A stretch of 64,000 bases of DNA, taken from Erysipelotrichaceae bacterium 66202529 (lineage in GTDB: Bacteria > Bacillota_I > Bacilli_A > Erysipelotrichales > Erysipelotrichaceae). A program made the translations under genes and the position numbers. The DNA is taken from the NCBI GenBank assembly GCA_017161075.1, contig CP046174.1:1922001-1986000 (forward strand), written 5' to 3'. The notes under the pieces are model-generated. The model was not told the origin of the DNA. It did no database searches and saw only the letters and a program-made list of their open reading frames with translations. Positions 17,300 through 50,448 of the stretch are shown one piece after another. The stretch's first letter is position 1; the number at the start of each line of letters is the position of its first letter.

Positions 17300-17310
17300 A
17301 ATACTATATT

Positions 17311-17558: not shown

Positions 17559-17578
17559 ATAGAGAGGAAGGAGATTTT

Positions 17579-18950: not shown

Positions 18951-18974
18951 TAAAGGAAAGAGAGGAAATAGAAA

Positions 18975-19754
18975 ATGAAAAAGCTTATTACTGGGATGAT
19001 GGCTGTCGTTATGATGGCAGGACTTGCGGGCTGCGGCAGCAAGGATGATGGAAACAAGGAAGGCGGCAATACCGAGAAAAAGGAACTGACGGTGTATACG
19101 AATTCCGGCTACAAGCCATACGAAATGGTGGATGAAAAGGGAAATCTGTACGGTTTTGATATTGATGTGATGAATGAGGCGGCTAAACTGGCCGGCTATA
19201 CAGTAAAATGGGAGGATGTTGATTTTGACGGTATCGTTCCTTCTGTTAAGCAGGGCAAGGCAGATATCGGTATTGCGGGAATCACCTATACGGAGGAACG
19301 TGCAGAGCAGGTGGATTTCTCTGAGGTATACTACGCAGGTGAGGATGCACAGAACTACGTGCTGACGATGAAGGACAGCGGCATGAAAAAAACAGAAGAT
19401 ATCAAGGGAAAGAAAATCGGTACGCAGATGGGTACGATTCAGGAGTCTATTCTGAATTCCTTACAGGATGAATATAAGCTGAAGCTGGATAAGAGAAAAG
19501 CATATTCCGATATGGTTCTGGAAATGAAAAAGGGTGTTATTGATGCCATGGTAGTTGAAAAAGCAGTTGCTGAGGAGCTGGCTGCCGACAACAGCGATTT
19601 AACCTTTTATAAATTTGAAGCAGGAGCTGAGCTGGCTGGAAATGCTATGATTTTTCAAAAAGATAACAAGCTGAAGGACGAATTCAATACAGCTATTCAG
19701 ACCATGAAGGATAATGGAAAGATGGATGAGCTGGTAAAGAAATATTTTAAATAA
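18975..19754 (+). CDS. Amino-acid ABC transporter, substrate-binding lipoprotein
   Basis: A 259-residue SBP of family 3. The N-terminus is a lipoprotein signal with lipobox LAGC, Cys20 being the lipidated residue. The mature part begins after a charged linker with LTVYTNSGYKPYEMVDEKGNLYGFDIDVMNE, and includes GIAGITYTEERAEQVDFSEVYY, the family-3 signature region. It captures the amino acid outside the membrane and delivers it to the permease. Last gene of the T-box operon. Confidence 0.95.
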   Translation: MKKLITGMMAVVMMAGLAGCGSKDDGNKEGGNTEKKELTVYTNSGYKPYEMVDEKGNLYGFDIDVMNEAAKLAGYTVKWEDVDFDGIVPSVKQGKADIGIAGITYTEERAEQVDFSEVYYAGEDAQNYVLTMKDSGMKKTEDIKGKKIGTQMGTIQESILNSLQDEYKLKLDKRKAYSDMVLEMKKGVIDAMVVEKAVAEELAADNSDLTFYKFEAGAELAGNAMIFQKDNKLKDEFNTAIQTMKDNGKMDELVKKYFK

Positions 19755-19815
19755 TGACCAAAACCGTATGCGTAAGGAAGGCAATTTCCTCCCTTACGGT
19801 ACAAGCAGACAGGAT

Positions 19816-19858
19816 GAACAAGGAAGGAACGCTCTACAAAGCTTCCTTCTTTTTCATT
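19816..19858 (+). terminator. Terminator of the amino-acid transporter operon
   Basis: AAGGAAG (19820-19826) pairs with CTTCCTT (19842-19848), followed by CTTTTTC. A second hairpin without U-run, ACCGTA...TACGGT, lies just upstream. Confidence 0.65.
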
Positions 19859-19860
19859 TT

Positions 19861-20306
19861 ATAAATACAGCATATCTCCATTCCTGTGTGAGAAACGCAA
19901 GGAATGCTCTGCGTTTTTTTTCACGATAAGCTAAATTTTCGGGTTTGTGATATCGTATGACAGCTGTTGTCATATTTCTGTTATACAGTGTAAGTGCCCT
20001 GAATTATTTTCGTATGGAAAAATTCATTCGTATACAGGATAAACGTATTTTTGAATGCATTGTCTATGCAAAAAATGCAGATGTAAAACAGGTGAAGCTA
20101 TCGCTTGCAAAGATCATATGCGAGGCTGCTTTCCTCATCCGCAATGTGCTTTTTGCAGTGATTTTCAAGCAGAAGCCCTGCTCAGGAAGCATTTCTAGAC
20201 ATCCAGGGAAGAAAAAGCTTGCATTATCAAAGCATTTGCCGTATGGTTAAGCTGTACAGGGGGAGACACCCATCACAAAAAGACGAAGGTACAAAGGAAA
20301 ATAACT
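19861..20306. other. Intergenic region without a supported gene
   Basis: Contains a 97-codon ORF (19957-20250) lacking a ribosome binding site and starting inside the palindrome ATGACA-gctgt-TGTCAT. Its codon use and protein are not convincing; it may be a decayed gene. Confidence 0.3.
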
Positions 20307-31102: not shown

Positions 31103-32064
31103 ATGCTTACAAAAGATGTAACAGAGAATAAAGATATGAAGGTAGAGGTGCAGGAACGACTGAAATATGATAACGATATTTTTTTTAAGTTCGCTCTTGG
31201 CACAGAGGATGAAGATGCTGCGTTTATCCGTAACACCATTATTGAACGAGTGACAGGAATCCATCCTAAGGAGAGTACCGTATTAAATCCTAATCTGGAT
31301 CCTGCTATACTCAAAAAGAAAAAATGGTATTGGACATCCGTGTGAAGGACTGCGAAGGAAGAGAATACGGCATCGAGATGCAGACTACCTATTCAAAGCA
31401 ATCAGAGTTAAAACGCTTTGAACTGTACGGAGCCAGAATGTTATCGAATCAGCTCGATAGCGGAGATAGGTATTATGATCTTCTCCCTGTTTATCAAATA
31501 ATCTTTCTTGATTCCTATGCAGAACACACGAAGAAGTTAATTGATGCCTATCAGATGAGAAATGCGGAAGGAGAAGTAGAAAGTAAGCGCAGTTTAATGA
31601 AGCGAATTTACATCTATCTGCCGGAGATAGATGCAATCGTTAAGCGCAAAGGATTTGAGAAGCTGAATGACTTTGAACAATTGTGTTATTTGTTTAAAAA
31701 TAATGATAAAGATGGTATACTAAAAACAGAGGAAAGGCTGGTGAAGAAGGTAATGGAAAAGTACAAGAAATTTCATGACGCAGAAGACCTCTGGTCGATA
31801 GCGATGGCAACGCAGATACAGGAACAGCGCGAAAAAAATGCCATTTTGGATAGTTTCAAGGATGGCGTTGAGCATGGAATTGAACAGGGGCAAAAAGAGG
31901 GTGAAAGAATGCTGTTGAATAGACAAATGGTAAAGAAATATCATGAAGACTGCTCAACATGGTTATGTTCTTTAACAACAGAACAGCTCGACCTTGTATT
32001 CAATTTGTTATTCACCTGTGATACCTTGCAGGAACTAAAGGATCAGCTTACGGGCAACAAATAA
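31103..32064 (+). pseudogene. Rpn-family/PD-(D/E)XK nuclease family transposase, frameshifted
   Basis: The first part reads MLTKDVTENKDMKV...YDNDIFFKFALGTEDEDAAF from ATG 31103 (RBS AAGGATG). The frame breaks in the A-rich tract at 31311-31324, and the continuation in the -1 frame starts MVLDIRVKDCEGREYGIEMQTT, i.e. the D...E-x-Q catalytic core of the PD-(D/E)XK nuclease. One missing A explains it. Restored length is about 320 residues, normal for the family. The C-terminus (HGIEQGQKEGE) has the usual linker. These proteins promote RecA-independent recombination in E. coli Rpn; here the gene is probably inactive, or the tract is a sequencing error. Confidence 0.82.
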
Positions 32065-32076
32065 TACATATAAAGC

Positions 32077-32119
32077 CACAAAAAAACTGTTTTATGTGAA
32101 CGAAAACAGTTTTTTTGTG
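32077..32119. terminator. Long bidirectional terminator
   Basis: CACAAAAAAACTGTTTT pairs perfectly with AAAACAGTTTTTTTGTG around a 9-base loop, giving T-runs on both strands. Confidence 0.85.
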
Positions 32120-32377
32120 CAGTTTTTATACGAGATGTTTATGAAACAGAGCCTCAAGATATGCAGATTTTATCAGGGAATACAGTATAGTATAAATAAA
32201 AGCAGGCAATCATGCTCTTTTGATTCATCTGATATCTATTCTATATAGGTGATTTTTAGCTTTAAGATAATGTGACTTCTCTAAGGCGCATTTCATAACG
32301 CTTTTCCTAAATGCTATCTTTTATCGGTGAATAGTAACGGCAGCCTTTTCCTGCATGATAAGTCATGTAAAAAAATC
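32120..32377. other. AT-rich spacer before the pyr promoter
   Basis: I see no gene, hairpin with U-run or recognisable site in this stretch, except for an isolated -10-like TATAGTATAAAT at about 32186-32198. Confidence 0.3.
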
Positions 32378-32405
32378 TTGCAATACGACAGATATATGGT
32401 AAAAT
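32378..32405 (+). promoter_or_regulatory. Promoter of the pyrimidine operon
   Basis: TTGCAA (32378-32383), a 16-base spacer and TAAAAT (32400-32405). Confidence 0.7.
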
Positions 32406-32421
32406 ATTGAGTGATAAAAGG

Positions 32422-32517
32422 TCCTTTAAGATAATCCAGAGAGGTTATGAAGGCAATCAGCAAACCTGAAGTGTATAGAAAGGGTCCTTTTGTGTATCAA
32501 AACGGATCTTTTTTTGT
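32422..32517 (+). promoter_or_regulatory. PyrR-binding leader with attenuator
   Basis: AATCCAGAGAGGTT (32433-32446) matches the PyrR anti-antiterminator loop consensus ARUCCNGNGAGGYU exactly, and is closed by ATAA/TTAT and CCTT/AAGG. A terminator follows: GGGTCC-TTTTG pairs with CAAAA-C-GGATC, then TTTTTTT (32477-32517). UMP-bound PyrR would stabilise the first hairpin and cause termination. An ORF reading through this leader is not the true pyrB start. Confidence 0.88.
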
Positions 32518-32539
32518 AGGACCGGCAGGAGGAGAGCAT

Positions 32540-33430
32540 ATGAATACGAACAGTTTACTGAGAATCTGCGATTTAACGAGTGAAGAGATTTTTCATATTC
32601 TCGAGGATGCTGCTGTTTTTTCCAGTTCCCAGTCAGATTGGCAATTTCCGCGTAAGACGCTGATTGCTAATCTTTTTTTTGAGCCAAGCACCCGGACGCA
32701 TTTTTCCTTTGCGAGTGCTGAGCATCAGCTGGGAGCTTGCGTTGAGAATTTCAGTGCTCAAGGAAGCAGCGTGGAAAAAGGGGAGACCCTGTATGACACC
32801 GTTAAAACCTTTGAAAGCATTGGATATGATGCAGTCGTCATACGGCATCGTACGGATGAATATTTCAAGGAGCTTGAAAATATCACCATTCCAATTCTGA
32901 ATGCAGGGGATGGCTGCGGGAATCATCCGACACAGTGTCTGTTAGATCTGCTTACATTGTATCAGGAATTTGGCACGTTTCAGGGTATTAAGGTGGCTGT
33001 CATTGGAGATATTGTACATTCCCGTGTCGCAAACAGCCTGCGGGAAGCACTTGAGCTGCTCGGCGGTGAAATTGCATTCTCCGGCCCGGATAAATGGGTT
33101 GCCCGGGACGCGTACTATAAAAGCGTGGATGAAGCGGTACAGTGGGCAGATGCGGTCATGATGCTTCGAATACAGCATGAGCGTCATCAGGAAACCATGG
33201 CCATGAGCAAGGCTGAATATCTGAAGCGCTACGGTTTGACCAAAGCGCGTGCAGCGATGATGAAGCCGCATGCGATCATCATGCATCCGGCTCCGGTCAA
33301 TCGCGGAGTGGAAATCGACAGTGATCTGGTGGAAGCGCCAAACAGCCGCATATTCAAGCAGATGAGCAATGGTGTACTCGTGCGTAAGGCAGTGATCAAA
33401 CGCGCACTCGGCTATACCTTTGATCGCTAG
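32540..33430 (+). CDS. pyrB: Aspartate carbamoyltransferase catalytic subunit
   Basis: A 296-residue enzyme joining carbamoyl phosphate and aspartate to carbamoyl-aspartate. Carbamoyl-phosphate site FEPSTRTHFSFASAE and SSVEKGETLYDTVKTFESIG; later HPTQCLLDLLTLYQE and MHPAPVNRGVEI. No regulatory-subunit gene pyrI follows, as in Bacillus. ATG 32540 has GGAGGAG upstream; the longer ORF from 32447 begins within the PyrR leader. First gene of the pyr operon. Confidence 0.96.
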   Translation: MNTNSLLRICDLTSEEIFHILEDAAVFSSSQSDWQFPRKTLIANLFFEPSTRTHFSFASAEHQLGACVENFSAQGSSVEKGETLYDTVKTFESIGYDAVVIRHRTDEYFKELENITIPILNAGDGCGNHPTQCLLDLLTLYQEFGTFQGIKVAVIGDIVHSRVANSLREALELLGGEIAFSGPDKWVARDAYYKSVDEAVQWADAVMMLRIQHERHQETMAMSKAEYLKRYGLTKARAAMMKPHAIIMHPAPVNRGVEIDSDLVEAPNSRIFKQMSNGVLVRKAVIKRALGYTFDR

Positions 33431-33463
33431 TGCTACATAAAACAAAAGGAAAGAGGTGCGCAT

Positions 33464-34756
33464 ATGAAGCTGATACAGCAGGCACAAATCATCACAAAGG
33501 GGAATGCCACAGAGGCAATGGATGTTCTCTTTGACGAAACACAGATTATCAAAATCGCGAAGCATATTGATCCCGCACTGGCAGAGGAGGTCATTGCGGC
33601 AGAGCATAAGGTACTGCTTCCCGGGCTGATTGATGTCCATGCACATTTACGTGAGCCAGGCTACGCACATAAGGAAACGATCAAAAGCGGTACAGCGGCC
33701 GCAGCACATGGCGGCTTTACGACGATAATGGCTATGCCCAATGTCATTCCCTATCCGGATAATACCGAAACCATGCGTGCCTATCTGGAAAAAATCAAAC
33801 AGGACGCACTGGTACATGTTCTTCCCTATGCCTGTATCACAAAGGCGGAAGCCAGTAAGGAGCTGAGTGATATGGAGGGACTGAGTGCTATGGGAATCCA
33901 AGCATTCAGCGATGACGGTGTTGGTGTGGCAACGGCGGACATGATGCAGTGTGCGATGCGTAAATGCCGCGAGGTTGACGGTATCATCGTTGCTCATACT
34001 GAGGACATGCGTTACCGTCTGCCGAAGGCATGCATGCATGAGGGAAGCCGCAGCAAGGAGCTGGGACTTACCGGCATTCCAAGCGCCTGTGAATATGTAC
34101 AGCTACAGCGTGATCTGAAGCTGGCCGCAGAAACCGGCTGCCGCTATCACGTATGCCATATGAGTGCACAGGAAAGCGTGGAGGCACTGCGAAAGGCCAA
34201 GGCGGAAGGCTTAGATGTGAGCGGCGAGGTAACAGCACACCATCTGCTGTTAAACGAAACGGCAGTTGAGAATCCCAATCATAAAATGAATCCGCCGCTG
34301 CGCAGGGAGGAAGACCGTCAGGCATTGATTCAGGGACTGCTGGATGGTACCATCGATATGATTGCGAACGACCATGCACCGCACAGCGAGGAAGAAAAAA
34401 ACAGAGGTATGGAGCAGGCACCGTTTGGGATCGTAGCTCTGGAAACGGCATTTCCACTGCTGTATACCCGCTTTGTTGCGCAGGAGAAAATCTTCACGCT
34501 GGAACAGCTGGTAACCTGGATGAGTGAGGCAGCCACAAAGCGTTTCCGTATGGAGCGTAAGGGAAAGCTGAAGGAAGGCTATACCGCAGACTTTATCCTG
34601 GTGGATTTGGACAGTGTGAAAAAGATAGACAAACAGGAATTCTATTCCATGGGTAAAAATACGCCGTTTGACGGTGTTGCCTGCAAGGGCTTTGTTGTTA
34701 AGACATTTGTGGATGGAATTTGCGTATATGATAACAGGGAGGGCTTGCTGAAATGA
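33464..34756 (+). CDS. pyrC: Dihydroorotase
   Basis: A 430-residue type I dihydroorotase that cyclises carbamoyl-aspartate. Zinc ligands in DVHAHLREPG, and later HTED, HVCHMS and ANDHAPHSEEEK. The N- and C-terminal parts form the small composite domain typical of the family. RBS AAGAGGTG. Its stop overlaps the start of carA1 by 4 bases, so translation is coupled. Confidence 0.96.
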   Translation: MKLIQQAQIITKGNATEAMDVLFDETQIIKIAKHIDPALAEEVIAAEHKVLLPGLIDVHAHLREPGYAHKETIKSGTAAAAHGGFTTIMAMPNVIPYPDNTETMRAYLEKIKQDALVHVLPYACITKAEASKELSDMEGLSAMGIQAFSDDGVGVATADMMQCAMRKCREVDGIIVAHTEDMRYRLPKACMHEGSRSKELGLTGIPSACEYVQLQRDLKLAAETGCRYHVCHMSAQESVEALRKAKAEGLDVSGEVTAHHLLLNETAVENPNHKMNPPLRREEDRQALIQGLLDGTIDMIANDHAPHSEEEKNRGMEQAPFGIVALETAFPLLYTRFVAQEKIFTLEQLVTWMSEAATKRFRMERKGKLKEGYTADFILVDLDSVKKIDKQEFYSMGKNTPFDGVACKGFVVKTFVDGICVYDNREGLLK

Positions 34757-35832
34757 AAAAGCGACTATTGATTCTTGAAGACGGCAGTGTTTATGAGGGT
34801 ATCGCCTTTGGTGGTGATACATATCAGATGGGAGAGCTGATCTTCCAGACGGGAATGAGCGGCTATCAGGAGATTATTTCCGATCTGTCCTATTACGGAC
34901 AAATCGTTATGATGACCTATCCGGCAATGGGAAACTGCGGTATTAACCGCGATGATTTTGAAAGCATCTCTCCGAAGATGTTTGGCTTTGTGGTAAAGGA
35001 ATACTGTGAAACACCAAGCAATTTCCGCAGTGATATGACACTGGATGCTTTCATGAAGCTGAAGGGGATTCCGGGTATTGCGGATATTGATACACGCGAA
35101 ATTACAAGAAAAATCAGAGATCACGGTACCTGTAAGGCAATTATGGCAGATGCGGATGCAGACGTGGATGCAATCGTAGCGATGCTGAAGGAAAGCGAGC
35201 TGCCAAGTGATGGCGTACAGGCTGTTTCCACAGTGAAGCCGTTTCCGATTCCATCCCGCGGACAGAAGGTCGTCATGGTGGATATCGGCACCAAATTCGC
35301 AGTTATCCGGGAGTTTAATATGCGTGGCTGTGATCTGATCGTCGTTCCTTATAATATGAGTGCTGCGGATATTCTGGCCATTCATCCGGACGGGATCGTG
35401 TTAAGCGGCGGCCCGGGTGCACCACAGGACATTCCGGAAACAGTAGCCACCTGCCGTGAGCTGCTTGGCAGTGTCCCAATGCTTGGAATCGGTCTGGGAC
35501 ATGAGGTGATTGCGGCAGCCTGCGGGGCAACGGTTGTGAAAATGAAGGTTGGACATCATGGAAATTCCTCTCCGGTTCGCAATCTGAAGAAAAATAAAAT
35601 TGAATTTACTGCACAGAACCACGGCTATGAGGTAGCGCCGGATTCCCTGGAGGGAACCGGACTGATTACGACCTATACGGCATTGAATGACGGTTCTATT
35701 GAGGGCTTTACACATGAAACCTATCCGCTGTTTTCCTATTCCTTTGAACCGGAGGCAGCACCGGGTGCAGACGACTGTACTTATATATTTGATGATTTCT
35801 GCAAGGTGATGAAAGAAAGGAGTGCTGAGTAA
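34753..35832 (+). CDS. carA: Carbamoyl-phosphate synthase small subunit, copy 1, glutaminase-dead
   Basis: A 359-residue CarA with a normal N-terminal domain ([44 protein letters not shown]). The C-terminal class I amidotransferase domain is degenerate: the nucleophile elbow GICLGHQ is GIGLGHE, with Gly247 (GGT) where copy 2 has Cys247 (TGT); catalytic His332 of copy 2 is Glu332 (SFEPEAAPG), and the oxyanion-loop SNGPGDP is SGGPGAP. Glu334 is kept. Such a chain cannot hydrolyse glutamine by the known mechanism. The reading frame is intact and ungapped relative to copy 2, so it is maintained, probably to support an ammonia-driven CarB or as a regulatory or structural subunit. It overlaps pyrC and lies 1 base before carB1. 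Confidence 0.93.
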
Positions 35833-35833
35833 A

Positions 35834-38800
35834 ATGCCAAAAAGAAGCGATATTAAGAAAATTATGGTGATTGGCTCCGGGCCGATCGTCATTGGACAGG
35901 CTGCGGAATTTGACTATGCCGGCTGTCAGGCATGTACGGCACTGCGTGAGGAGGGCTATGAGGTTATTCTGATCAACTCCAACCCTGCCACCATCATGAC
36001 CGATACGGTGATTGCGGATCGTGTCTACATTGAACCGCTGACACTGGAATTTGCGAGCCGTGTCATTTATAAGGAGCGTCCGGATGCGATTCTGGGAAGT
36101 CTGGGCGGACAGACCGGGTTAAATCTGGTTGTCGAGCTGGCAGAAAGCGGAATTCTGGACGAATATCAGGTAGAAATTCTGGGAACAGCGCTGGATGCGA
36201 TTGAAAAAGCGGAGGATCGTGATAAATTCCGTGAGCTGATGTATGAAATCGGAGAACCGGTTCCGGAAAGTGTGATCGTACATACCATTGAGGAGGCTGT
36301 GGCCTTTGCCGAAAGCAACGGCTATCCGGTTGTTGTCCGTCCTGCATTCACCCTGGGAGGAACCGGGGGAGGCTTTGCCCACAGTGAGGAGGAGCTGCGT
36401 ACCATTTGTGATAACGGCTTGAAGATTTCACCGGTACACCAGTGTCTGATCGAACAAAGCATTGCCGGCTATAAGGAAATCGAATATGAGGTTATGCGTG
36501 ACAATGCGGATAATGCCATTGTTGTCTGCAATATGGAAAATGTCGATCCGGTTGGTATCCATACCGGAGACTCCATTGTTGTGGCGCCTACGCAGACGCT
36601 AACCGATCGGGAATGCGGCATCATGCGTGCATCTGCATTAAAAATCATACGTGCATTGAAAATCTGCGGCGGCTGCAATGTGCAGCTGGCGCTGGATCCT
36701 AACAGCTTTAACTACTATGTTATCGAGGTAAATCCACGCGTATCCCGTTCCTCAGCACTTGCCTCCAAGGCCACCGGATATCCGATTGCCAAGCTGGCAG
36801 CCAAGGTTGCTGTTGGTCTGACGCTGGATGAAATCATCAATCCGGTTACCACGACGAGCTATGCCTGTGTGGAGCCATGCATTGACTATGTTGTTGCGAA
36901 ATTCCCGCGCTTTGCCTTTGATAAATTCCCGAAGGCAGATCGCACGCTGGGAACCCAGATGAAGGCGACCGGAGAGGTTATGTCCATCGGGCGTACCTTT
37001 GATGAGGCAATTTTAAAGGCAATCCGTTCTCTGGAAATGAAGACGGATCATCTGGAACAGAAGGAAATCAATGAAATGAGCGAGGAAGCCCTGTGGAAGA
37101 AGCTTGCTCAGTGTGATGATGAGCGCATTTATGTCATTACCGCTCTGCTGCGAAAGGGAGCGGATATCGAAAAGATCTTCGATGTGACGAAAATGGATCG
37201 CTATTTCCTGAACCGTTTCAAGAATATCGTGGAGCAGGAGGCACAGATCAAAGCGCATCCGATGAATCTGGATGTGTTGAAGGCTTCCAAGAAAATGGGC
37301 TTTGCGGACTCCTGGATTGCGAGAAGCTGGGGTGTTGAGGAAGCGGATATTTATAATACAAGAAAACAGAACGCAATCGTTCCGGTATATAAAAACGTGG
37401 ATACCTGTGCGGGAGAATATATTTCTCATACGCCGTATCTGTATTCCACCTATGAGCATGAAAATGAGTCCGTACGCAGTGACAACCGCAAAATTATCGT
37501 TTTAGGATCCGGGCCGATCCGTATCGGTCAGGGTGTGGAATTTGACTATGCGACAGTACATTGTGTGAAAACGATTCGTGAACGCGGCTATGAGGCAATC
37601 GTTATTAACAACAACCCGGAAACCGTGTCAACAGATTATTCTATTTCCGATAAGCTGTACTTTGAACCGCTGACGATCGAGGATGTCATGCATGTCATCG
37701 ATCTGGAGCAGCCGCTGGGCGTTGTGGTGCAGTTTGGTGGACAGACGGCCATCAATCTGGCTGATCAGCTGGTGGAGCGCGGTGTTAAAATCCTGGGAAC
37801 CTCTCTGGAAAACATCGACCGTGCAGAGGATCGCCATGAATTTGAGGAAATGCTGCATAAGCTGAACATCCCGCAGCCGCAGGGGGAAACTGCAGTCGAG
37901 GTAGAGGAAGCGGTGAGCATCGCCAACCGTATCGGATATCCAGTACTGGTGCGTCCATCCTATGTACTGGGCGGACGTGCGATGGAAATCGTACACAACG
38001 ATGACGATCTGCGTGTCTATATGGCAACGGCAGTAAAGGAAATCAGCCACGATGCACCGATTCTGGTTGATAAATATATCATCGGTAAGGAAATGGAGGT
38101 CGATGCGATCTGTGATGGAGAGCATGTGTACATTCCTGGTATCATGGAGCATATCGAACGTGCGGGCGTGCATTCCGGTGACTCCATCAGCGTTTATCCT
38201 GCTCCAACGGCAAGTCAGAAGGTCAAGGATACAATTACCGATTATGCCATCCGTATTGGAAAAGGCTTCCACTTCATCGGTCTGTACAACATTCAGTTTA
38301 TCGTTGAAACGGATAAGCAAAGTGGTGAGGAGCGCGTCTATGTGCTGGAGGTCAATCCGCGAAGCTCCCGTACCGTTCCATTCTTAAGCAAGGTGACCAA
38401 TGTGCCGATGTCCTATGTGGCAACACGCTGTGTCCTTGGTGATTCTTTAGCGGAACAGGGCTATGAGGAAGGTGTGCATCCGGAAGGGGAGCGTGTCTTT
38501 GTCAAGGCACCGGTATTCTCCTTTGCGAAGCTGAGAAGTGTCGATACGACCTTAGGTCCGGAGATGAAATCCACCGGAGAAGCACTCGGCGGGGATGTGA
38601 CGCTGGAAAAAGCCTTATACAAGGCGCTGCTGGCAAGCGGTGTGAAAATTCCGCTGCACGGCAATGTGCTGATCACTGTTGCGGATGATGACAAGCAGGA
38701 GGGGCTGAAGATTGCGAAGCGCTTCTCTGCCATCGGCTATGGCATCTATGCGACAAAGGGAACGGCACAGTATTTGTGTGAAAACGGCATCTATGTAAAA

Positions 38801-39049
38801 ACCGTGGATAAGGTAAAGGAAGAAACCGACAACAACGTCATTGATGTGATCCGTAAGGGGCGTGTCAATTATGTAGTGAATACGATGAGCATATCCAGTG
38901 AGGTCAGCAGGGATGGGTTTGAAATCCGCCGTGCTGCCGCTGAGAACAATATCAGCTGCTTCACATCGCTGGATACGGCAAATGCAATCCTGCGCGTGCT
39001 GGAATCACAGACCTTTACAACGATATCTATGAATGAACTGGAGGGGTAA
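35834..39049 (+). CDS. carB: Carbamoyl-phosphate synthase large subunit, copy 1
   Basis: A 1071-residue synthetase with two homologous ATP-grasp halves: [17 protein letters not shown]...[14 protein letters not shown] in the first (carboxyphosphate) half and [20 protein letters not shown]...[14 protein letters not shown] in the second (carbamoyl-phosphate) half, followed by an MGS-like allosteric domain ([19 protein letters not shown]). The ATP- and metal-binding motifs [18 protein letters not shown] and [15 protein letters not shown] are intact, so it should be active. It is paired with the glutaminase-dead CarA. AAAGGAGTG lies in the end of carA1. Very similar to copy 2, with long identical DNA runs in the C-terminal half. 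Confidence 0.96.
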
Positions 39050-39050
39050 G

Positions 39051-40704
<1,654 letters not shown>

Positions 40705-40705
<1 letters not shown>

Positions 40706-41406
40706 TGAGCAGAACAATCGTTGCCCTGGATTTTTCCAGAAAAGAAGATGTCATGAATTTCCTCGACAAGTTTGAGGAGCCGATTTATGTAAAGGTCGGA
40801 ATGGAGCTGACCTATGCCTTCGGATTTGAAATGATTCGCGAAATCAAGAGCCGCGGTCACAAGATCTTTCTGGATCTGAAGCTGCATGATATTCCAAACA
40901 CCGTGAAAAACGGAATGAAAAATCTGGCAAAGCTGGATGTCGATATCGTCAATCTGCATGCGGCCGGAGGTAGTGCCATGATGAAGGCTGCTATGGAGGG
41001 TCTTGCGGAGGGTGCTGTAAACGGAAAGCGTCCGCTGTGTATCGCCGTGACGCAGCTTACCAGTACATCACAGGAAGCGATGAATGAAGAGCTTCTGATT
41101 CCGGGTGAGGTAAAGGATGTCGTGATTTCCTATGCTAAGCTGGCAAAGGAAAGCGGTCTGGATGGCGTCGTATGCTCTGTGCATGAGGCAAGAGGAATTC
41201 ATGAGGCATGCGGTGCAGATTTTCTGACGGTAACACCGGGTATTCGCTTATCCGATGATTCCAAGGATGACCAGAAGCGTGTTGCGACGCCGGCATTCGC
41301 CAAAGAGGAGGGCTGTGACTACATCGTTGTGGGACGCAGTATCACCAAGAGTGCGGACCCGCTGGCTACCTATCACGAAATTGAACAGACAATGGAGGGA
41401 AACTAA
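40705..41406 (+). CDS. pyrF: Orotidine 5'-phosphate decarboxylase
   Basis: A 233-residue decarboxylase forming UMP. The catalytic charged network is visible in FLDLKLHDIPNTVKNG (Lys-Asp-x-Asp pattern), with YVKVGMEL and VTPGIRLSDDSKDDQKR for substrate phosphate binding. Its ATG overlaps the end of pyrD by one base. Confidence 0.96.
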
Positions 41407-42045
41407 ATGCAAATCGAAAAAACTATTGCGAAAAACCTGCTGGATATCAAGGCGGTATCCCTGCAGCCAAACGCTCCGTTTACATGGGCGAGCGGTATCA
41501 AGTCACCGATTTACTGTGACAACCGTCTGGTGCTTTCCTTTCCGGAAAAACGCAGTGTGGTCGTAGACGGCTTTGTGGAGCTGATCAAAAAGGAATATGC
41601 CGATGCAGAGGTAATCGTCGGAACGGCTACTGCCGGGATTCCATGGGGAGCTATGGTTGCGGATAAGCTGGATAAGCCGTTTGGCTATGTACGCAGCTCC
41701 AACAAGAGCCATGGCAAAGGAAATAAAATAGAAGGAAAAATTGAAAAGGGCGCAAAGGTCGTCGTGGTTGAGGATCTGATCTCTACCGGTGGCTCCGTTA
41801 AGGATGTTATTGAATCCCTGCGCGAGGCTGGTGCTCAGGTGCTGGGCGTTGTGGCAATCTTCACCTATCTGTTACCGGCATCTACCGAATTATTTAACAG
41901 CATTCAGTGTGAATTTAAGACCTTGAGCAATTACGATGTATTGATCGATGTAGCGCTGGAAAACGAGTATATAAAGGATGCAGACCTTGAAAAATTAAAG
42001 GCCTGGAAACAGGATCCAAAGGATGAGTCCTGGATGGAAAAATAA
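41407..42045 (+). CDS. pyrE: Orotate phosphoribosyltransferase
   Basis: A 212-residue enzyme making OMP from orotate and PRPP. PRPP-binding motif VVVVEDLISTGGSVKDVI; FTWASGIKSPIYCDNR and YVRSSNKSHGKGNKIEG (flexible loop with Lys and His). ATG follows the pyrF stop directly. It completes the six-step pathway before the second carAB pair. Confidence 0.96.
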   Translation: MQIEKTIAKNLLDIKAVSLQPNAPFTWASGIKSPIYCDNRLVLSFPEKRSVVVDGFVELIKKEYADAEVIVGTATAGIPWGAMVADKLDKPFGYVRSSNKSHGKGNKIEGKIEKGAKVVVVEDLISTGGSVKDVIESLREAGAQVLGVVAIFTYLLPASTELFNSIQCEFKTLSNYDVLIDVALENEYIKDADLEKLKAWKQDPKDESWMEK

Positions 42046-42061
42046 GAGAAGAAACAAACGC

Positions 42062-42099
42062 AAAGGGGCGTAGGATGTGCATGCATTCTATGCCCTTTT
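42062..42099 (+). terminator. Internal hairpin between pyrE and carA2
   Basis: AAAGGGGC-TAG pairs with CTA-GCCCTTT around a GC-containing loop and is followed by TG, so the U-run is short (TTTT). It may be a leaky attenuator lowering carA2-carB2 expression, or an RNA processing site. Confidence 0.5.
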
Positions 42100-42139
42100 G
42101 GTGGAAACAGGATTTGTAAGGACTTACAGGAGGAGCTAT

Positions 42140-43216
42140 ATGAAAAAACGTTTACTGATATTGGAAGACGGCAGTGTATATGAAGGCTATGGCTTTGGAT
42201 CGGATCATTATCAGGTAGGTGAGCTGGTGTTCAATACCGGAATGAGCGGCTATCAGGAGGTACTGTCCGATTTATCATATTGCGGACAGATCGTCATGAT
42301 GACCTACCCGATGATTGGCAATTACGGCATCAACCGTGATGATTTTGAGAGTCTGGACCCAGCGGTGTTCGGCTTTGTGGTAAAGGAATACTGTGAACAG
42401 CCAAGCAATTTCCGCTGTGATCTTTCACTGGATGAATTTCTGAAATTAAAGGATATTCCCGGTATTTCCCATGTGGATACACGCGCAATCACCAGAAAGC
42501 TGCGCAGCAGTGGAACGATGCGTGCCATTATGGCAGAGGAGGATGCGGATGTGGAAGCAGCTGTAGCGATGCTGAAGGAAACGGATTTTCTCCACGATCA
42601 GGTTGCCAGAGTATCTACGCAGAAGCCGTTCCCGATTCCATCCCGCGGGAAAAAGGTCGTACTTATGGACTTCGGGGCAAAGCACGGCATCATTCGTGAG
42701 CTGTCCGCAAGAAGCTGTGATTTGATCGTTGTTCCCTACAATACAAGCGCGAAGGCTATTCTGGCATTGCATCCGGATGGGGTGATGCTGAGCAACGGTC
42801 CCGGGGATCCCAAGGATATGGGAGATGCAATCGAGGTTATCCGTGAGCTGATTGGACAGGTAGTGATATTCGGCATCTGTCTGGGACACCAGTTGATTTC
42901 ACTGGCATGTGGGGCAAATACCGTAAAGCTGAAATTCGGACACCGCGGCTGCAATCATCCGGTTGTAAATCTGGCAACCGGAAAGGTGGAAATCACCTCT
43001 CAGAATCACGGCTATGCTGTCGAGGCGGAAAGTCTGGCAGGTACACAGCTGGAAATGACACACCAGGCATTAAACGATAAGAGTGTGGAGGGTGTCCGCC
43101 ATAAGCAATATCCGGTTTTCAGTGTGCAGTACCATCCGGAGGCTGCACCGGGGCCGGAGGATGCGAACTATCTGTTTGATGCGTTCATGGAACTGATGGA
43201 AAAGGAGACTGCATAA
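42140..43216 (+). CDS. carA: Carbamoyl-phosphate synthase small subunit, copy 2, intact glutaminase
   Basis: A 358-residue glutaminase subunit with the complete triad: Cys247 in FGICLGHQ, His332 and Glu334 in YHPEAAPGP, and the oxyanion motif SNGPGDP. It releases ammonia from glutamine and channels it into CarB. The closest relative in the window is the dead copy at 34753, aligned without gaps through the catalytic residues. ATG 42140 follows AGGAGGAG; the longer ORF from 42077 runs through the upstream hairpin region. Two bases separate its stop from carB2. Confidence 0.96.
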
Positions 43217-43217
43217 T

Positions 43218-46200
43218 ATGACAAAGCGTATGGACATTAAGAAAATACTCGTGATCGGTTCCGGACCGATTGTAATCGGACAGGCCGCTGAATTTGACTA
43301 TGCAGGAAGCCAGGCATGCCAGTCTCTGCGTGAGGAGGGCTATGAGGTCATTCTGATCAACTCCAATCCGGCAACGATTATGACGGATACAGCAATCGCA
43401 GACCGCGTTTACATCGAACCGCTGACACTGGAGTTTGCGAGTCGTATCATATACAAGGAGCGCCCGGATGCTATCCTGGGAAGTCTGGGCGGTCAGACCG
43501 GGTTAAATCTGGTCGTAGAGCTTGCCAATTCCGGTATACTAAAGGAGTATGAGGTGGAAATTCTGGGTACGGACCTGGATGCGATCAACAAGGCTGAGGA
43601 TCGCGAGCTTTTCCGTGATCTGATGTATGAAATCAAGGAGCCTGTACCGGAAAGCGATATTGTACATACCGTAGAGGAGGCCATTTCCTTTGCGAATGAA
43701 ATTGGCTATCCGGTTGTCGTTCGCCCGGCCTATACGCTGGGAGGAACTGGAGGAGGCTTTGCGGATAATGAGGAGGAGCTGCGTGTCATTGCGGACAACG
43801 GGTTAAAGCTGTCACCGGTGCACCAGTGCCTGATTGAACGCAGCATTGCCGGCTTTAAGGAAATTGAATATGAGGTCATGCGTGATTACAATGATAACGC
43901 CATTGTCGTCTGCAATATGGAAAATATCGACCCGGTCGGTATTCATACCGGAGATTCCATGGTTGTCGCACCGGTACAGACGTTATCCGACCGTGAGCAT
44001 CAGATGCTGCGCAATGCCAGTCTGAAAATCATTCGTGCATTGAAGATATGCGGCGGCTGCAATGTCCAGCTGGCACTGGATCCAAACAGCTTCAAATATT
44101 ACATTATTGAGGTGAACCCGCGTGTATCGCGTTCCTCTGCATTGGCAAGTAAGGCGACCGGCTATCCGATTGCCAAGCTGGCTGCGAAAATTGCGGTCGG
44201 TATGACGCTGGATGAAATTATCAATCCGATCACAAAAACAAGCTATGCCTGCTTTGAGCCTTCTCTAGATTACATCGTTACCAAGCTGGCACGCTTCCCG
44301 TTTGATAAATTCGAGCGTGCTGATCGCCGTTTGGGAACCCAGATGAAGGCAACCGGAGAGGTTATGTCCATCGGACGAACCTTTGAGGAAAGCTTTCTGA
44401 AGGCGGTACGCTCTCTGGAAATGAAATGCGATCATATTGACAATAAGGAAATTGATGGCTGTACAACAGAGGAACTGTGGGAGAAAATTGCAGTGAAGGA
44501 TGATCTGCGTATGTTTGGTATCGCTGAGCTAATCCGTCGTAAGGAATCCCTAGAGCGCATTCATGAGATTACCAAAATCGACTTCTTCTTCCTGCATAAA
44601 TTCGCAAATATCATTGCACTGGAACAGGAAATGATGAAGAATCCGCAGGATGTGCAGGTTTTACGTCATATCAAGGAAAACGGCTTCGCGGATTCCTACA
44701 TCGCCCGTAAGTGGGGGATGGATGAGCGTGCAGTATATGAGCTGCGTAAGGCAAACGGCATTGTACCGGTATACAAAATGGTCGATACGTGTGCGGCGGA
44801 GTTTGAAAGTGCGACACCGTATTTCTATTCCACCTATGAGCAGGAGAATGAATCCTATCGCAGTGACCGTAAGAAAATTATCGTATTAGGCTCCGGCCCA
44901 ATCCGTATCGGACAAGGTGTGGAGTTTGACTATGCGACGGTGCACTGCGTCATGACCCTGCGTGAGTGCGGCTATGAGGCGATTGTAATCAATAACAATC
45001 CGGAAACGGTATCCACGGATTTCTCCATTTCCGATAAGCTTTACTTTGAGCCGCTGACGATAGAGGATGTCATGCATGTTGTCGATCTGGAGCAGCCGCT
45101 GGGCGTTGTGGTGCAATTTGGCGGTCAGACGGCAATCAACCTGGCTGATCAGCTGGTAGAGCGCGGTGTCAAAATTCTGGGAACCTCTCTGGAAAATATC
45201 GACCGTGCGGAGGATCGTCACGCCTTTGAAGCGATGCTGCATGAGCTGGATATTCCTCAGCCAACCGGACAGACTGCCGTTGAGGTGGAGGAAGCTGTAA
45301 AGATTGCGAATCGCATTGGATATCCGGTACTGGTGCGCCCATCCTATGTATTGGGTGGACGTGCGATGGAAATCGTACACAACGATGAGGACTTACGTAT
45401 CTATATGGCAACGGCAGTAAAGGAAATCAGCCACGATGCACCGATTCTGGTCGATAAATATATCGTTGGCAAGGAATTGGAAATCGATGCGATCTGTGAC
45501 GGGGAGCAGGTATATATACCGGGCATTATGGAGCATATCGAGCGTGCCGGTATCCATTCCGGAGATTCCATCAGTGTCTATCCGCCGCAAACTATTTCCG
45601 ACAAGGTACGCGATACCATTATTGACTATGGTATCCGCATCGGGAAAGGCTTTCACTTTATCGGTCTGTACAATATCCAGTTTATTGTAGAGGCTGACAC
45701 TGAGCAGGTCTATGTGCTGGAGGTCAATCCGCGAAGCTCCCGTACTGTACCGTTTTTAAGCAAAATCACAGGGGTGCCGATGAGTCATATCGCAACGCGC
45801 TGTGTGCTGGGCGATACTTTGGCGGAACAGGGCTATGAGGAAGGTATTCGTCCATTTGCGGATCGTGTGTTTGTGAAGGCTCCGGTATTCTCCTTTGCGA
45901 AGCTGCGCAGTGTGGATACGGTGCTGGGGCCAGAAATGAAGTCCACCGGAGAAGCGCTGGGCGGTGATGTGACACTGGAAAAGGCATTGTACAAGGCATT
46001 GCTGGCAAGCGGTGTCCGCATTCCGAATCACGGGAATGTATTGATGACCATAGCGGATGATGATAAGGAAGAGGGCCTGACGATAGCGAAGCGTTTTTCT
46101 GCCATCGGATATGGTATTTATGCGACCAGCGGTACCGCCAGCTTCCTGCAGGAAAACGGACTGTTCGTAAAGAATGTCAATAAGATCGCACAAAGCGGTG

Positions 46201-46424
46201 ATCTGAATGTGCTGGATGTCATCCGTAAGGGAAAGGTGAATTATGTAATCAATACCATGTCGAGCGGAAACAAAGAGGCAACCAATGACGGCTTCCTGAT
46301 CCGCCGGGTATCCGCGGAAAACAATATCAGCTGCTTTACCTCCTTTGATACGGCAAATGCAATATTGAAGGTGCTGGAATCGTTGAATTTTACAACGATT
46401 TCCATGAATGAGCTGGAAAAATAA
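43218..46424 (+). CDS. carB: Carbamoyl-phosphate synthase large subunit, copy 2
   Basis: A 1068-residue CarB with both ATP-grasp halves intact ([70 protein letters not shown]) and the C-terminal allosteric MGS-like domain ([19 protein letters not shown]). It makes carbamoyl phosphate from bicarbonate, ammonia and two ATP for both pyrimidine and arginine synthesis. Paired with the intact CarA. Last gene of the operon, followed by a clear terminator. Confidence 0.97.
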
Positions 46425-46432
46425 TATGAATA

Positions 46433-46478
46433 AACAGGAGAGTGCAGACAATCGCAGCTGTACTTTCCTGTTTTTCTA
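46433..46478 (+). terminator. Terminator of the pyr operon
   Basis: ACAGGAGAGTGCAG pairs with CTGTACTTTCCTGT, followed by TTTTCT. Confidence 0.8.
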
Positions 46479-46685
46479 TGTCTGTTCACAATTCGTTGCA
46501 TCCCCATAGCGGTATAGCTTATAGAAAATAAGGAGCACTCATACGGGTGTGCTGTCTGCTGATGCAGGAAGGAAATTATACAGCGAAAGACTTTCGTTTT
46601 CCATAAAGCAGCGGATACTGACTTCATTGTTCACCTGCAAGTCTATAAAGCGCTGAAATACGGGGGAATACTGGCTTTTTCGTAC

Positions 46686-46700
46686 TGAAAGCGCTATAAT
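46686..46700 (+). promoter_or_regulatory. -10 element and possible cre site of the SDR gene
   Basis: TATAAT at 46695-46700 overlaps TGAAAGCGCTATAA (46686-46699), which deviates from the cre consensus at one fixed position. No good -35 is visible. Confidence 0.4.
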
Positions 46701-46729
46701 TAAGACAAGAAAACAGAAAGGAGCTTTCT

Positions 46730-47551
46730 ATGTTTACACAACGTTTCAAGGACAAGGTTATGGTCGTAACAGGAGGTACTTCCGGAATTGGGAAGGCCGT
46801 ATGCATCAGAGCCGGCGCTGAGGGTGCAGCAGTGGTTATCGCCGGTAGAAATGAGAATCGCGGAAAAGCGATTGAAAAGACGATTACTGACAATGGAGGA
46901 ACAGCATTGTTTGTTCGCTGTGATGTGACTAAAAAAGAGGATATTCTTGCCCTGTATGCAAAAACCATGGAGGTATACGGGCGCTTGGATATTGCGGTGA
47001 ACAATGCAGGGATTGTCGGTGATTCTAAGAAAATCGAGGATTTAACTGATGATGACTGGTTCAGTGTGGTAAATGCCAACCTGACAGCGATGTTTTACTG
47101 CATACGCGAGGAAGTAAAGTACATGATGCAAAATGAGAACGGCGGCTGTATTGTGAACACAGCTTCCGTAGCCGGTATTCGTGCGACACCAGCCGGCCCT
47201 GCTTATGTTGCCAGCAAGCACGGTGTTGTTGGTTTGACAAAGTCCACAGCAATGGATTATGCCAATAGGAACATCACATGTAATGCTGTCTGTCCGGCAG
47301 GTACGGATACACCGCTGACAGAGGCAGCAAAAGAAAAAATTTATGCTAAGATTGCGGAGCTAAAGGCACAGGGCAAGGATCCGCAGGAATTTATGAAAAA
47401 TTCCATGATTGCCGGTAAGACAGAAACGCTGCAGCATCGCAATGCGACGAGTGAGGAGCAGGCAGCGACCATTCTGTACTTTGCCAGTGATGAGGCAAGA
47501 CATATCACCGGAAGCATCGTGGCAAGCGATGGCGGCTTTACGGTGTATTGA
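46730..47551 (+). CDS. Short-chain dehydrogenase/reductase
   Basis: A 273-residue classical SDR: cofactor motif TGGTSGIGKA, NNAG in IAVNNAGIVGD, catalytic Ser in NTASVAGIRA and the Y-x3-K motif YVASK. Many homologues act on 3-oxoacyl, sugar-alcohol or steroid substrates; the bile-acid hydroxysteroid dehydrogenases of gut bacteria are also SDRs, but nothing here decides the substrate. The segment of about 30 residues before EETATI-like EEQAATILYFASDE is longer than in minimal SDRs (EKIYAKIAELKAQGKDPQEF). RBS AAAGGAG. Monocistronic, with a terminator. Confidence 0.92.
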   Translation: MFTQRFKDKVMVVTGGTSGIGKAVCIRAGAEGAAVVIAGRNENRGKAIEKTITDNGGTALFVRCDVTKKEDILALYAKTMEVYGRLDIAVNNAGIVGDSKKIEDLTDDDWFSVVNANLTAMFYCIREEVKYMMQNENGGCIVNTASVAGIRATPAGPAYVASKHGVVGLTKSTAMDYANRNITCNAVCPAGTDTPLTEAAKEKIYAKIAELKAQGKDPQEFMKNSMIAGKTETLQHRNATSEEQAATILYFASDEARHITGSIVASDGGFTVY

Positions 47552-48010: not shown

Positions 48011-48021
48011 TTAGGCAGTTA

Positions 48022-48118
48022 TATGACTGACGGAAGTGGAATTGACCACAGGGAGTATAATGGATAAGAGCCGACCGTCTGGGCAGAAGAGCTCGGGACA
48101 ACTGTCGGCTCTTTTCTT
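48022..48118 (+). promoter_or_regulatory. ZTP riboswitch (pfl motif) with terminator
   Basis: The conserved parts of the pfl RNA are present in order: TGACTGACGG, the hairpin GTGGA-ATTGA-CCAC, AGGGAG, and CCGACCGTCTGGGCA at 48071-48085. The latter overlaps the left arm of a terminator, AAGAGCCGAC (48066-48075) with GTCGGCTCTT (48104-48113) and a T-rich tail. ZTP/ZMP, the folate-stress signal, would block the terminator and raise pfl expression, supplying formate for one-carbon metabolism. Confidence 0.9.
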
Positions 48119-48192
48119 GTGGATGAATCAGTCCTATGATTTATCTTACGAAACCATTTCATAACAGAATGAAACAGGAGGACGCAGGATTT

Positions 48193-50448
48193 ATGATGAA
48201 TGAACGCAAAGAATGGGAAGGCTTTACAGGCCGCCTCTGGAAAGAGGAAATCAATGTTCGGGATTTTATTCAGAACAACTACAAGCCATACGATGGAGAT
48301 GAGGCTTTTCTGGCAGAGCCTACGGAAGCAACAAACAAGCTGTGGGGAGAACTGCAGAAGCTGCAGAAGGAAGAACGCGCTAAAAACGGTGTTCTTGATA
48401 TGGAAACAGAAATCGTTTCCTCTTTGACTTCCTATGGGCCGGGCTATATCAGGGATGAATTAAAGGATCTGGAAGCGGTAGTCGGTCTGCAGACAGACAA
48501 GCCGCTGAAACGTGCTTTCATGCCATACGGCGGTATCAAAATGAGTGAGGAAGCATGTACGACATACGGCTATGAGCCAAGTGAAAAGCTGCATGAAATC
48601 TTCCATGAATACCACAAGACACACAACGATGCTGTATTCGATTGCTATACACCGGAAATGCGTCTTGCCAGACGTAATAAAATCGTTACCGGACTTCCGG
48701 ATACCTATGGCCGCGGGCGAATCGTCGGTGATTACCGCCGTGTTGCGCTGTATGGTATCGATTATCTGATTGAGCAGAAGCAAAAGGATAAAGCCAACTG
48801 CGGCTGTGGTGTCATGAGCGATGACATCATCCGTCAGCGGGAAGAGCTGGCAGAGCAGATCAAGGCACTGAAGGGTATGAAGGCGATGGCTGCCCTGTAC
48901 GGCTTTGATATCAGCGGGCCTGCACACAATGCAAAGGAAGCGGTACAGTGGCTGTATTTCGGCTATCTGGCTGCCATTAAAACACAAAACGGTGCTGCTA
49001 TGAGTGTCGGCCGTGTTTCCACCTTCCTGGATATTTATATCGAACGTGATCTGGAAGCAGGCATTCTTAATGAAAGCGAAGCACAGGAGCTGATTGACCA
49101 TATGACTATGAAATTCCGTATGGTGAAATTCGCGCGTATTCCTTCCTATAACCAGCTGTTCTCCGGTGACCCGGTATGGGCTACGCTGGATTTGGCAGGA
49201 CTTGGAATGGATGGACGTCACATGGTTACTAAATCCGATTTCCGCTTCCTGCATACACTGGAAAACATGGGGCCTGCACCGGAACCTAATCTGACGGTGC
49301 TGTATTCCTCCCATCTACCGGAAAACTTCAAGACCTATTCCGCACGTATCTCTATTGAGACAAGCTCTGTCCAGTATGAAAACGATGATGTCATGCGTCC
49401 GGTATGGGGCGATGACTATGCGGTATGCTGCTGTGTAAGTGCAACCCAGACCGGTAAGGAAATGCAGTTCTTCGGAGCACGCGCAAACCTTGCAAAATGT
49501 CTGCTGTATGCGATCAACGGCGGTATTGACGAAAAGACAAAGGCACAGGTTGGCCCGGAATATCGTCCAATCACAAGTGAATATTTGGATTACGATGAGG
49601 TTATGCACAAGTATGACAACATGATGGAATGGCTGGCTGATCTGTATGTCAACATTTTGAACCTGATTCAGTATATGCATGATAAATATTATTACGAAAG
49701 CTCTTTGATGGCACTGATCGACACCGATGTGCGCAGAACCTTCGCAACCGGTATTGCCGGCTTCTCCCATGTCGTGGATTCTTTAGCAGCAATCAAATAT
49801 GCCAAGGTAAAAACAATTCGTGATGAGGATGGACTGGTTATTGATTATGAAATCGAAGGGGATTTCCCTCGCTATGGAAATGATGATGACCGTGCGGATG
49901 ATATTGCGGTATGGCTGTTAAAAACCTTTATGGAAAAAATCGAAAAGCGTCACACCTATCGTGATTCTGAGCCGACAACCTCAATTCTCACCATTACCTC
50001 AAACGTTGTATACGGTAAGGCAACTGGAGCACTTCCGGATGGACGTAAGGCCGGAGAGCCGTTATCACCGGGAGCGAATCCTTCCTATGGCGCAGAGCAG
50101 AACGGTCTGCTGGCATCTTTAAATTCCGTAACCAAGCTGCCGTATGAATATGCGCTTGATGGTATCAGCAATACGCAGACAATCAACCCGGATGCACTGG
50201 GACATGATGAGGATGAACGCGCAAATAATCTGGTGAATGTTCTGGATGGTTATTTTGACCAGGGTGCTCACCATCTGAATGTTAATGTGTTCGGTATTGA
50301 AAAATTGAAGGATGCCATGGAGCATCCGGAAAAAGAGGAATATGCGAATTTCACGATCCGCGTTTCTGGATATGCCGTTAAATTTATTGACCTGACCCGT
50401 GAGCAGCAGATGGATGTTATTTCCAGAACCTGCCATGCAAGTCTGTAA
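48193..50448 (+). CDS. pflB: Formate C-acetyltransferase (pyruvate formate-lyase)
   Basis: A 751-residue glycyl-radical enzyme converting pyruvate and CoA to acetyl-CoA and formate. The tandem active cysteines are in [12 protein letters not shown] (C412-C414, three in a row), and the radical glycine is Gly726 in RVSGYAVKF near the C-terminus. GGAGG (48177-48181) supports ATG 48193 or 48196; the ORF from 48136 lacks an RBS. It is preceded by a ZTP riboswitch and followed by its activating enzyme. Confidence 0.97.

Follow-up and report, generated by a model that had tools for sequence, protein, structure and literature searches.

Two carbamoyl-phosphate synthetases in one pyr operon of an Erysipelotrichaceae bacterium, one with a small subunit lacking the catalytic cysteine and histidine

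A 64,000-nucleotide stretch of the genome of Erysipelotrichaceae bacterium 66202529 (contig CP046174.1, positions 1,922,001 to 1,986,000 of the forward strand; hereafter the window) contains a pyrimidine (pyr) operon with genes for two carbamoyl-phosphate synthetases (CPSases; CPS in enzyme names), one of which has a small subunit, CarA1, without the catalytic residues of glutamine hydrolysis. The gene order is pyrB-pyrC-carA1-carB1-pyrK-pyrD-pyrF-pyrE-carA2-carB2, with all genes on the + strand. The first small-subunit gene, carA1 (34753..35832, 359 aa), carries Gly247, Glu251, Asn271 and Glu332, and is followed by the gene for its large-subunit partner, carB1 (35834..39049), for which ATG 35834 is the probable start although the listed open reading frame (ORF) begins at GTG 35822. 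The second, carA2 (42140..43216, 358 aa), has an intact Cys247 and His332 in the motifs CLGHQ and HPEAAPG; its start was placed at ATG 42140, after AGGAGG, within a listed ORF that begins at 42077. Its partner, carB2 (43218..46424), was assigned by a residue check and family profiles.

The neighbouring genes pyrB (aspartate carbamoyltransferase, 32540..33430), pyrC (dihydroorotase, 33464..34756), pyrD (dihydroorotate dehydrogenase, 39797..40705), pyrF (orotidine monophosphate decarboxylase, 40705..41406) and pyrE (orotate phosphoribosyltransferase, 41407..42045) were named from their sequences and gene neighbourhood. For pyrK (dihydroorotate dehydrogenase electron-transfer subunit, 39033..39797), the best NCBIfam match was NF000799 at 264.7 bits, under that model's cut-off of 314. 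The pyrB start was set at Met32 of the listed ORF, 3′ of an element (32419..32517, + strand) that resembles a PyrR-binding-site leader (RF00515; 45 bits, under the gathering score of 54; E = 4.4e-5). This was the sole Rfam match at E ≤ 0.5 in the operon region (32000–46750), so one attenuator probably serves both CPSases. A leader or promoter belonging to carA2 itself was considered and rejected, as no Rfam match lies there and none of the promoter-like or terminator-like sites predicted for the region falls in the pyrE–carA2 gap (42046–42139). Across the operon region there were 32 promoter-like sites against 20.7 (standard deviation 5.0) in shuffled sequences, and 10 terminator-like sites against 11.4.

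CarA1 and CarA2 align without an internal gap, with 224 of 359 columns identical. At residue 247, CarA1 has Gly (GGT, window 35491) where CarA2 has Cys (TGT, 42878), a single-base difference; at residue 332, it has Glu (GAA, 35746) in place of His (CAT, 43133). The motif CLGHQ of CarA2 reads GLGHE in CarA1, with Gln251 changed to Glu251, and GPGDP reads GPGAP. These differences, and the presence of both pairs in one pyr operon with intact CarB partners, had been described in an initial annotation of this DNA, and all were borne out. Residues 247 and 332 align with Cys269 and His353 of the Escherichia coli enzyme. A further difference, absent from that annotation, is at residue 271, where CarA1 has Asn and CarA2 has Cys; this position aligns with E. 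coli Gly293, a residue of the ammonia tunnel. The QNHGYE stretch around Asn311 is kept in CarA1.

CarA1 is nevertheless a recognisable CPSase small subunit, scoring 398.7 bits with TIGR01368 (cut-off 307.35), 164.1 with PF00988 (cut-off 27) and 131.0 with PF00117 (cut-off 22.8), and being 88% identical to its homologue in Longicatena caecimuris. An AlphaFold2 model (predicted local distance difference test score 90.7, predicted template modelling score 0.92) retains the small-subunit fold, with template modelling scores of 0.95 to E. coli CarA (1jdb) and 0.89 to human CPS1. Rubino is said to have described E. coli CPS mutants in which Cys269 was changed to Gly or Ser. The pair that defines a glutamine-hydrolysing (type II) enzyme, Cys269 and His353 in E. 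coli numbering, is present in CarA2 and absent from CarA1; both residues are indispensable for glutamine hydrolysis by E. coli CPS (PMC6245113). The best explanation of these changes is that CarA1 would be unable to hydrolyse glutamine. The two NCBIfam models that CarA1 passes are named for a ‘glutamine-hydrolyzing’ or simply a CPS small subunit, so the difference is invisible in annotation of this kind.

The large subunits CarB1 and CarB2 are identical in 849 of 1072 columns. Each has two ATP-grasp halves with their catalytic residues and the tunnel-gate residues Cys232, Ala251 and Ala314, and every catalytic and gate residue checked is kept in both copies, as the initial annotation had held for the ATP-grasp motifs. 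Gene conversion between carB1 and carB2 was considered and set aside, since identity in 150-nt windows ranges from 0.53 to 0.92 and conversion is inseparable from conservation. In a CarB tree, CarB1 clusters with the CarB partners of CarA proteins that have lost Cys and/or His (seven rows), which shows that CarA1 and CarB1 have been inherited together as a pair. Among CarB partners of Cys-less CarA more widely, the checked residues, gate residues included, were kept in 22 of 22, one of which was truncated and only partly readable.

The initial annotation had named, among the findings that would refute its reading, Cys and His restored in most relatives (a sign of recent pseudogenisation) and a ratio of nonsynonymous to synonymous substitution (dN/dS) near 1. 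Neither was found. Cys is absent from 78 of the 120 nearest CarA1 homologues (77 Gly, 1 Ala), and none of these 78 keeps the His, which is replaced by Glu in 45, Asn in 26, Gln in 5, Ala in 1 and Asp in 1. Where E. coli has Gly293, 76 of the 78 Cys-less rows carry Asn, but all 42 Cys-bearing rows carry Cys, Ser or Gly; where it has Gln273, Glu is found in 52 of the 78, and presumably in frog CPS1 too. The near relatives of CarA1 thus share a fixed loss. In the window's clade, dN/dS of the glutamine amidotransferase (GATase) domain lies far below 1 (∼0.06 for L003–L005 and ∼0.07 for the window and L002), with dS near saturation; most other pairs were doubtful or failed because dS was saturated. 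Close pairs of dead domains, i.e. those without the catalytic Cys and/or His, from other clades gave ∼0.05 (L077–L083), ∼0.03 (L089–L132) and ∼0.08 (L125–L129), compared with ∼0.01–0.03 for intact domains in three pairs. Selection on the dead GATase domains is therefore purifying, somewhat relaxed.

These values bear on the idea that carA1 is a decaying duplicate, on its way to being lost and retained only by its place in the operon. The CarA1 GATase domain does evolve at roughly double the rate of its CarA2 counterpart between the window and L022, and other genomes have a CarA cut down to its N-domain or undetected (see below). Against this, the carA1 frame is open and carB1 intact, dN/dS is only ∼0.03–0.08 in the three close pairs of dead domains, Gly is fixed in 77 of the 78 Cys-less homologues with Asn at position 271 in 76, and a dead CarA is the sole one found in Amedibacillus dolichus and others. 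Decay is already largely refuted and, in our judgement, highly improbable.

To place the window among its relatives, the order was surveyed with CarA1 as query. Matches were obtained in 153 of 315 genomes and the active site was read in 131 of them; in 20 genomes, left out, all matches were only 35–39% identical to CarA1, and two had fragments only. Across the 131 genomes, the site is visible in 135 CarA copies, of which 105 have both Cys and His, 29 are without Cys and one has Cys but no His. A dead copy occurs in 30 genomes, in 27 of which, A. dolichus included, no intact copy was found, and three (G001, G220 and G214) have an intact copy as well. Two of the dead-only genomes have further remnants: in G075, an N-terminal CarA fragment with the site outside the readable part; and in G185, a 57-residue carA match with two internal stops (L161:1501-1659), apart from its Cys-less carA. 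The CarA proteins of G003 and G004 are identical and these two genomes are not independent counts. In the dead-only genomes, the dead carA–carB pairs adjoin pyr genes, and pyrE was not found at many of the loci read.

With the window and Oceanobacillus rekensis (see below) included, the Cys is replaced by Gly in 26 of 31 cases, by Ser in four and by Asp in one. Gly and Ser codons are one base away from Cys; Gly may also relieve the strained nucleophile elbow. A small residue (G, A or C) occupies the Gly293 position in 98 of 105 intact copies and 4 of 29 dead ones, the rows being related to one another. Such preferences, with Glu at the Gln273 position and Asn at the Gly293 position in most of the window's clade and the QNHGYE stretch retained in CarA1, would suit a pocket (Gly247, Glu251, Glu332, Asn271) that now binds a different ligand and senses it allosterically, perhaps as a measure of nitrogen status, with no hydrolysis. 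Other lineages with a dead CarA differ at the His site (E, Y, N, D, Q, H or T), so no shared new site is visible, and we regard a new ligand role as very unlikely.

Within the window's clade, both copies are found in the window, L001 and L022, only the dead copy in L002–L005, and only the intact copy in L023 and L024. This is the pattern expected if either enzyme can carry out the step. With CarA2 as query, a single CarA, Cys-less, was found in five of seven genomes (A. dolichus, three other members of the window's clade, two of them nearly identical, and a metagenome-assembled genome [MAG] of Traorella). This argues against a mixed complex in which CarB1 pairs with CarA2, or CarA2 feeds ammonia to CarB1, with CarA1 regulatory or structural. 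The shared operon in the window, L001 and L022 and the close similarity of the two pairs (224/359 and 849/1072 columns identical) are in its favour, but in those five genomes a dead CarA does not depend on an active partner, and CarA1 travels with CarB1. We consider a mixed complex unlikely. For the same reason, the alternative in the initial annotation, with CarA1 as no more than a regulator or scaffold of CarB2, loses weight: there are relatives in which CarA1B1 is the only CPSase found.

The number of independent losses was estimated on trees and depends on the tree. A CarA tree built with the active-site columns removed, O. rekensis included, requires at least eight state changes if the two most degenerate rows (L152 and L154) are left out and nine if they are kept; the N-domain alone gave 13 and CarB gave 11. 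Three short TrpG/PabA-like rows (L160, L162 and L163) were left out of the cleaned tree and of the residue counts, L152 and L154 out of the cleaned tree only, and L153, L158 and L159 have no readable site. In G214 (L041), a dead pair stands at the canonical place and an intact pair downstream, as in the window; this looks like a separate, more recent duplication, and apparently an independent second case. The loss of the catalytic residues is thus shown to be fixed and recurrent. The single case described by the initial annotation is real, but the loss is recurrent in Bacillota, and in other genomes it extends to the glutaminase domain or, apparently, the whole subunit.

Similar losses occur outside the order. 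In the CarA of the O. rekensis pyr operon (L009:10001-11077), Gly replaces the Cys and Gln the His, and at E ≤ 1e-15 no second CarA was found in this genome, the only other match being a short GATase. Cys is absent from 3 of the 25 pyr-type CarA loci read in Oceanobacillus. Among 120 homologues of the O. rekensis protein, 15 lack Cys and/or His (e.g. P0136, P0155 and P0163) and stand among close intact relatives: in O. senegalensis, Cys is changed to Ser and the His kept; in Virgibacillus ainsalahensis and V. natechei, Cys is kept and the His lost. A quick tree of these homologues has at least eight changes of state, four of them forced by well-supported branches, and the two genera add four to eight changes to the count of the order. 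At the Gly293 position, Ala or Gly is kept in 7 of the 15 and S, T, V or L is found in eight; the tunnel residue is thus less changed in this set, and our guess is that it changes after the Cys has been lost. O. rekensis is aerobic. Its CarA has undergone this loss although no other CarA was found in the genome, so the ammonia-rich anaerobic niche proposed in the initial annotation finds no support as a general driver.

A further group of genomes has CarB without CarA. In the order, 192 of 315 genomes gave a CarB match (E ≤ 1e-150), 40 of them without a CarA match. PF00988 also finds nothing in 37 of these 40, while it scores in both added control genomes and in all 14 named ones. The remaining three genomes (G190, G191 and G196) have the N-terminal CarA domain alone, without a GATase domain, as an open frame of 147–163 codons between pyrC and carB (L221, L222 and L223; L215:4085-4477, where L215 and L221 belong to the same genome). 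The carB loci were read for 20 of the 40 genomes. In six (L204, L213, L214, L216, L217 and L218), carB directly follows pyrC with no gene between; one is the N-domain case L215; and 13 lie away from pyrC, likewise with no adjoining carA match. Thirteen such CarB proteins (12 with no CarA, one with the N-domain) keep all 20 residues checked. The six loci with a direct pyrC–carB junction possibly encode CarB-only ammonia CPSases.

Ornithine carbamoyltransferase (TIGR00658 over its cut-off) was sought in 49 chosen genomes. Of those in the order, none of 16 dead-only genomes, 12 of 23 intact-only genomes and two of three with both copies have it, kinship being uncorrected; these figures exclude G245, which has a fragment, as well as O. 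rekensis and five genomes with CarB only or with the N-domain only. This suggests that glutamine use is more easily dropped where carbamoyl phosphate serves pyrimidines alone, and the glutamine enzyme of the window's close relatives may be kept for arginine. Since O. rekensis and three of the five CarB-only or N-domain-only genomes do have the enzyme, the link with a dead CarA is not general. Carbamate kinase as an alternative source of carbamoyl phosphate was rejected, as it was over the cut-off in none of 29 genomes (25 of the 27 dead-only, the three with both copies and O. rekensis), against 2 of 14 named control genomes. G195 scored 351 against a cut-off of 358, so arginine catabolism may be a source of carbamoyl phosphate in that genome. 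The idea that loss of glutamine synthetase was the driver was also set aside: PF00120 is present in 228 of 315 genomes, A. dolichus included, with no simple link, its absences being unreliable as a divergent form of ∼700 aa scores near the threshold.

Taken together, fixation, recurrence and the relatives with CarA1B1 as the sole CPSase found make an ammonia-dependent bacterial CPSase of independent origin, as proposed by the initial annotation, the best-supported reading. On the sequence evidence, CarA1B1 would resemble vertebrate CPS I in function and stand beside a glutamine-dependent twin; we give this a probability of about three in four. It is best supported by what the window's clade has retained: the two enzymes together in some members, and the dead or the intact one by itself in others. 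CarA1 would keep the small-subunit fold and presumably its contact with CarB1, having lost glutamine hydrolysis. Free ammonia would enter CarB1 by a path that avoids the former glutaminase pocket and arrive at the carboxyphosphate site, and the large subunit would convert it, with two ATP and bicarbonate, to carbamoyl phosphate for the pyr pathway. CarA2B2 would be an ordinary glutamine-dependent enzyme, so that one operon, behind a PyrR-like leader, would hold two nitrogen-donor versions of one step. Ammonia use, the entry route, complex formation and any physiological advantage are all parts that we infer. Precedent comes from E. coli CPS variants with a blocked or perforated tunnel, which are active on external ammonia, and from human CPS1, where Gln318 at the Gly293 position blocks the tunnel and ammonia entry elsewhere has been proposed (both from PMC4655335).

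The comparison with vertebrate CPS I (human CPS1, 5dot/5dou) shows likenesses and differences. In both, the catalytic Cys is replaced (Ser294 in human CPS1, Gly247 in CarA1), as is the residue at the Gly293 tunnel position (Gln318 and Asn271, an effect of Asn on the tunnel being an analogy), and the fold and the residues of large-subunit chemistry are kept. CPS I is a single fused polypeptide, unlike the separate carA1 and carB1 genes of this pyrimidine operon, and CarA1 has lost the His too, whereas frog CPS1 keeps the whole triad (PMC4655335). A further mark of ammonia-specific CPS I is its strict need for N-acetylglutamate as activator. Of the features that mark an ammonia-specific CPS I, CarA1B1 thus has a glutaminase-like domain without a complete triad and a Gly293 substitution but no fused polypeptide, the first not being universal in CPS I, as human CPS1 lacks the Cys and the frog triad is complete. 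CarA1B1 is no member of vertebrate CPS I: it has its own origin, taken as independent, and separate subunits, and by descent it is a CarAB. It shares with E. coli CarAB and CarA2B2 the same two subunits, domains, ATP-grasp residues and gate residues, and differs from them in that Cys and His are gone from CarA1 and the Gln273 and Gly293 positions changed. The NAD synthetase family also has glutamine-dependent and ammonia-dependent forms; there, the ammonia form is regarded as ancestral and the glutaminase as a gain (PMC3376133), whereas here the loss is secondary and the dead subunit often kept. Two other microbial routes to carbamoyl phosphate, the 41-kDa small CPS of Methanobrevibacter smithii and the carbamate-kinase-like CPS of Pyrococcus, use no CarA glutaminase subunit, but have another architecture or fold and are not CarAB enzymes with a lost CarA function (PMC6022934 and PMC6245113).

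Several points weigh against an ammonia-dependent CarA1B1. E. coli CPS requires very high, probably unphysiological, ammonia concentrations (PMC6245113). An intact glutamine CPSase accompanies CarA1B1 in the window, L001 and L022, so CarA1B1 may be unnecessary or serve some other purpose there, and a third CPSase may lie elsewhere in the source genome, of which the 64-kb window was read. Between the window and L022, the GATase domain of CarA1 has a dN of 0.265, against 0.114 in CarA2 (N-domain 0.152 and 0.128); that of CarA1 is the less constrained, as under partly relaxed selection. At L062 (G185), pyrB is split over two frames (L062:5099-5994) and pyrC was not seen in the locus, so the pathway may be failing there; the CarA of this locus groups with the window's CarA clade, though by a long branch, and its CarB does not. 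The missing pyrE at many of the loci read counts in the same direction. The dead-only and CarB-only genomes are for the most part of unknown completeness, and many are probably MAGs; some CarB matches end at contig edges, and a number of the missing carA genes may simply fall in assembly gaps or beyond the end of a contig. At the six loci with a direct pyrC–carB junction, gaps are no explanation, unless carA lies elsewhere undetected.

Two other RNA elements were seen in the window. A ZMP/ZTP riboswitch (RF01750, 56.9 bits; 48013–48091) lies directly 5′ of a gene (48136–50448) that we take to be pyruvate formate-lyase-like. A T-box leader (RF00230, 112 bits) was found at 17312–17535; the sole ORF of at least 250 aa within 16800–20000 (18975–19754) presumably encodes an amino-acid-type substrate-binding protein.

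With evenly balanced confidence, a wider scenario can be drawn. Bacillota would have switched their CPSase from glutamine to free ammonia at least 12 times (‘a dozen or more’), with CarA kept as a non-catalytic subunit, shrunk to its N-domain or gone; the window's lineage would have altered the ammonia tunnel at exactly the position where human CPS1 has it closed; and the window's species would keep both donor types in a single operon as a nitrogen-source switch for making pyrimidines. In a 2018 review, glutamine is given as the donor for all bacterial CPSases, and in the literature searched (open full text, with most subscription journals outside it and some sources seen in excerpt) we found no report of a Cys-less bacterial CarA or of CarB-only pyr operons. 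Bacteria whose sole CarA lacks the nucleophile, or which have CarB without CarA, contradict the general statement if they make pyrimidines de novo. They would offer many natural replicates of the switch from glutamine to ammonia known from vertebrate CPS I, and these replicates could show the order of changes, the route of ammonia entry and whether the Michaelis constant for ammonia drops.

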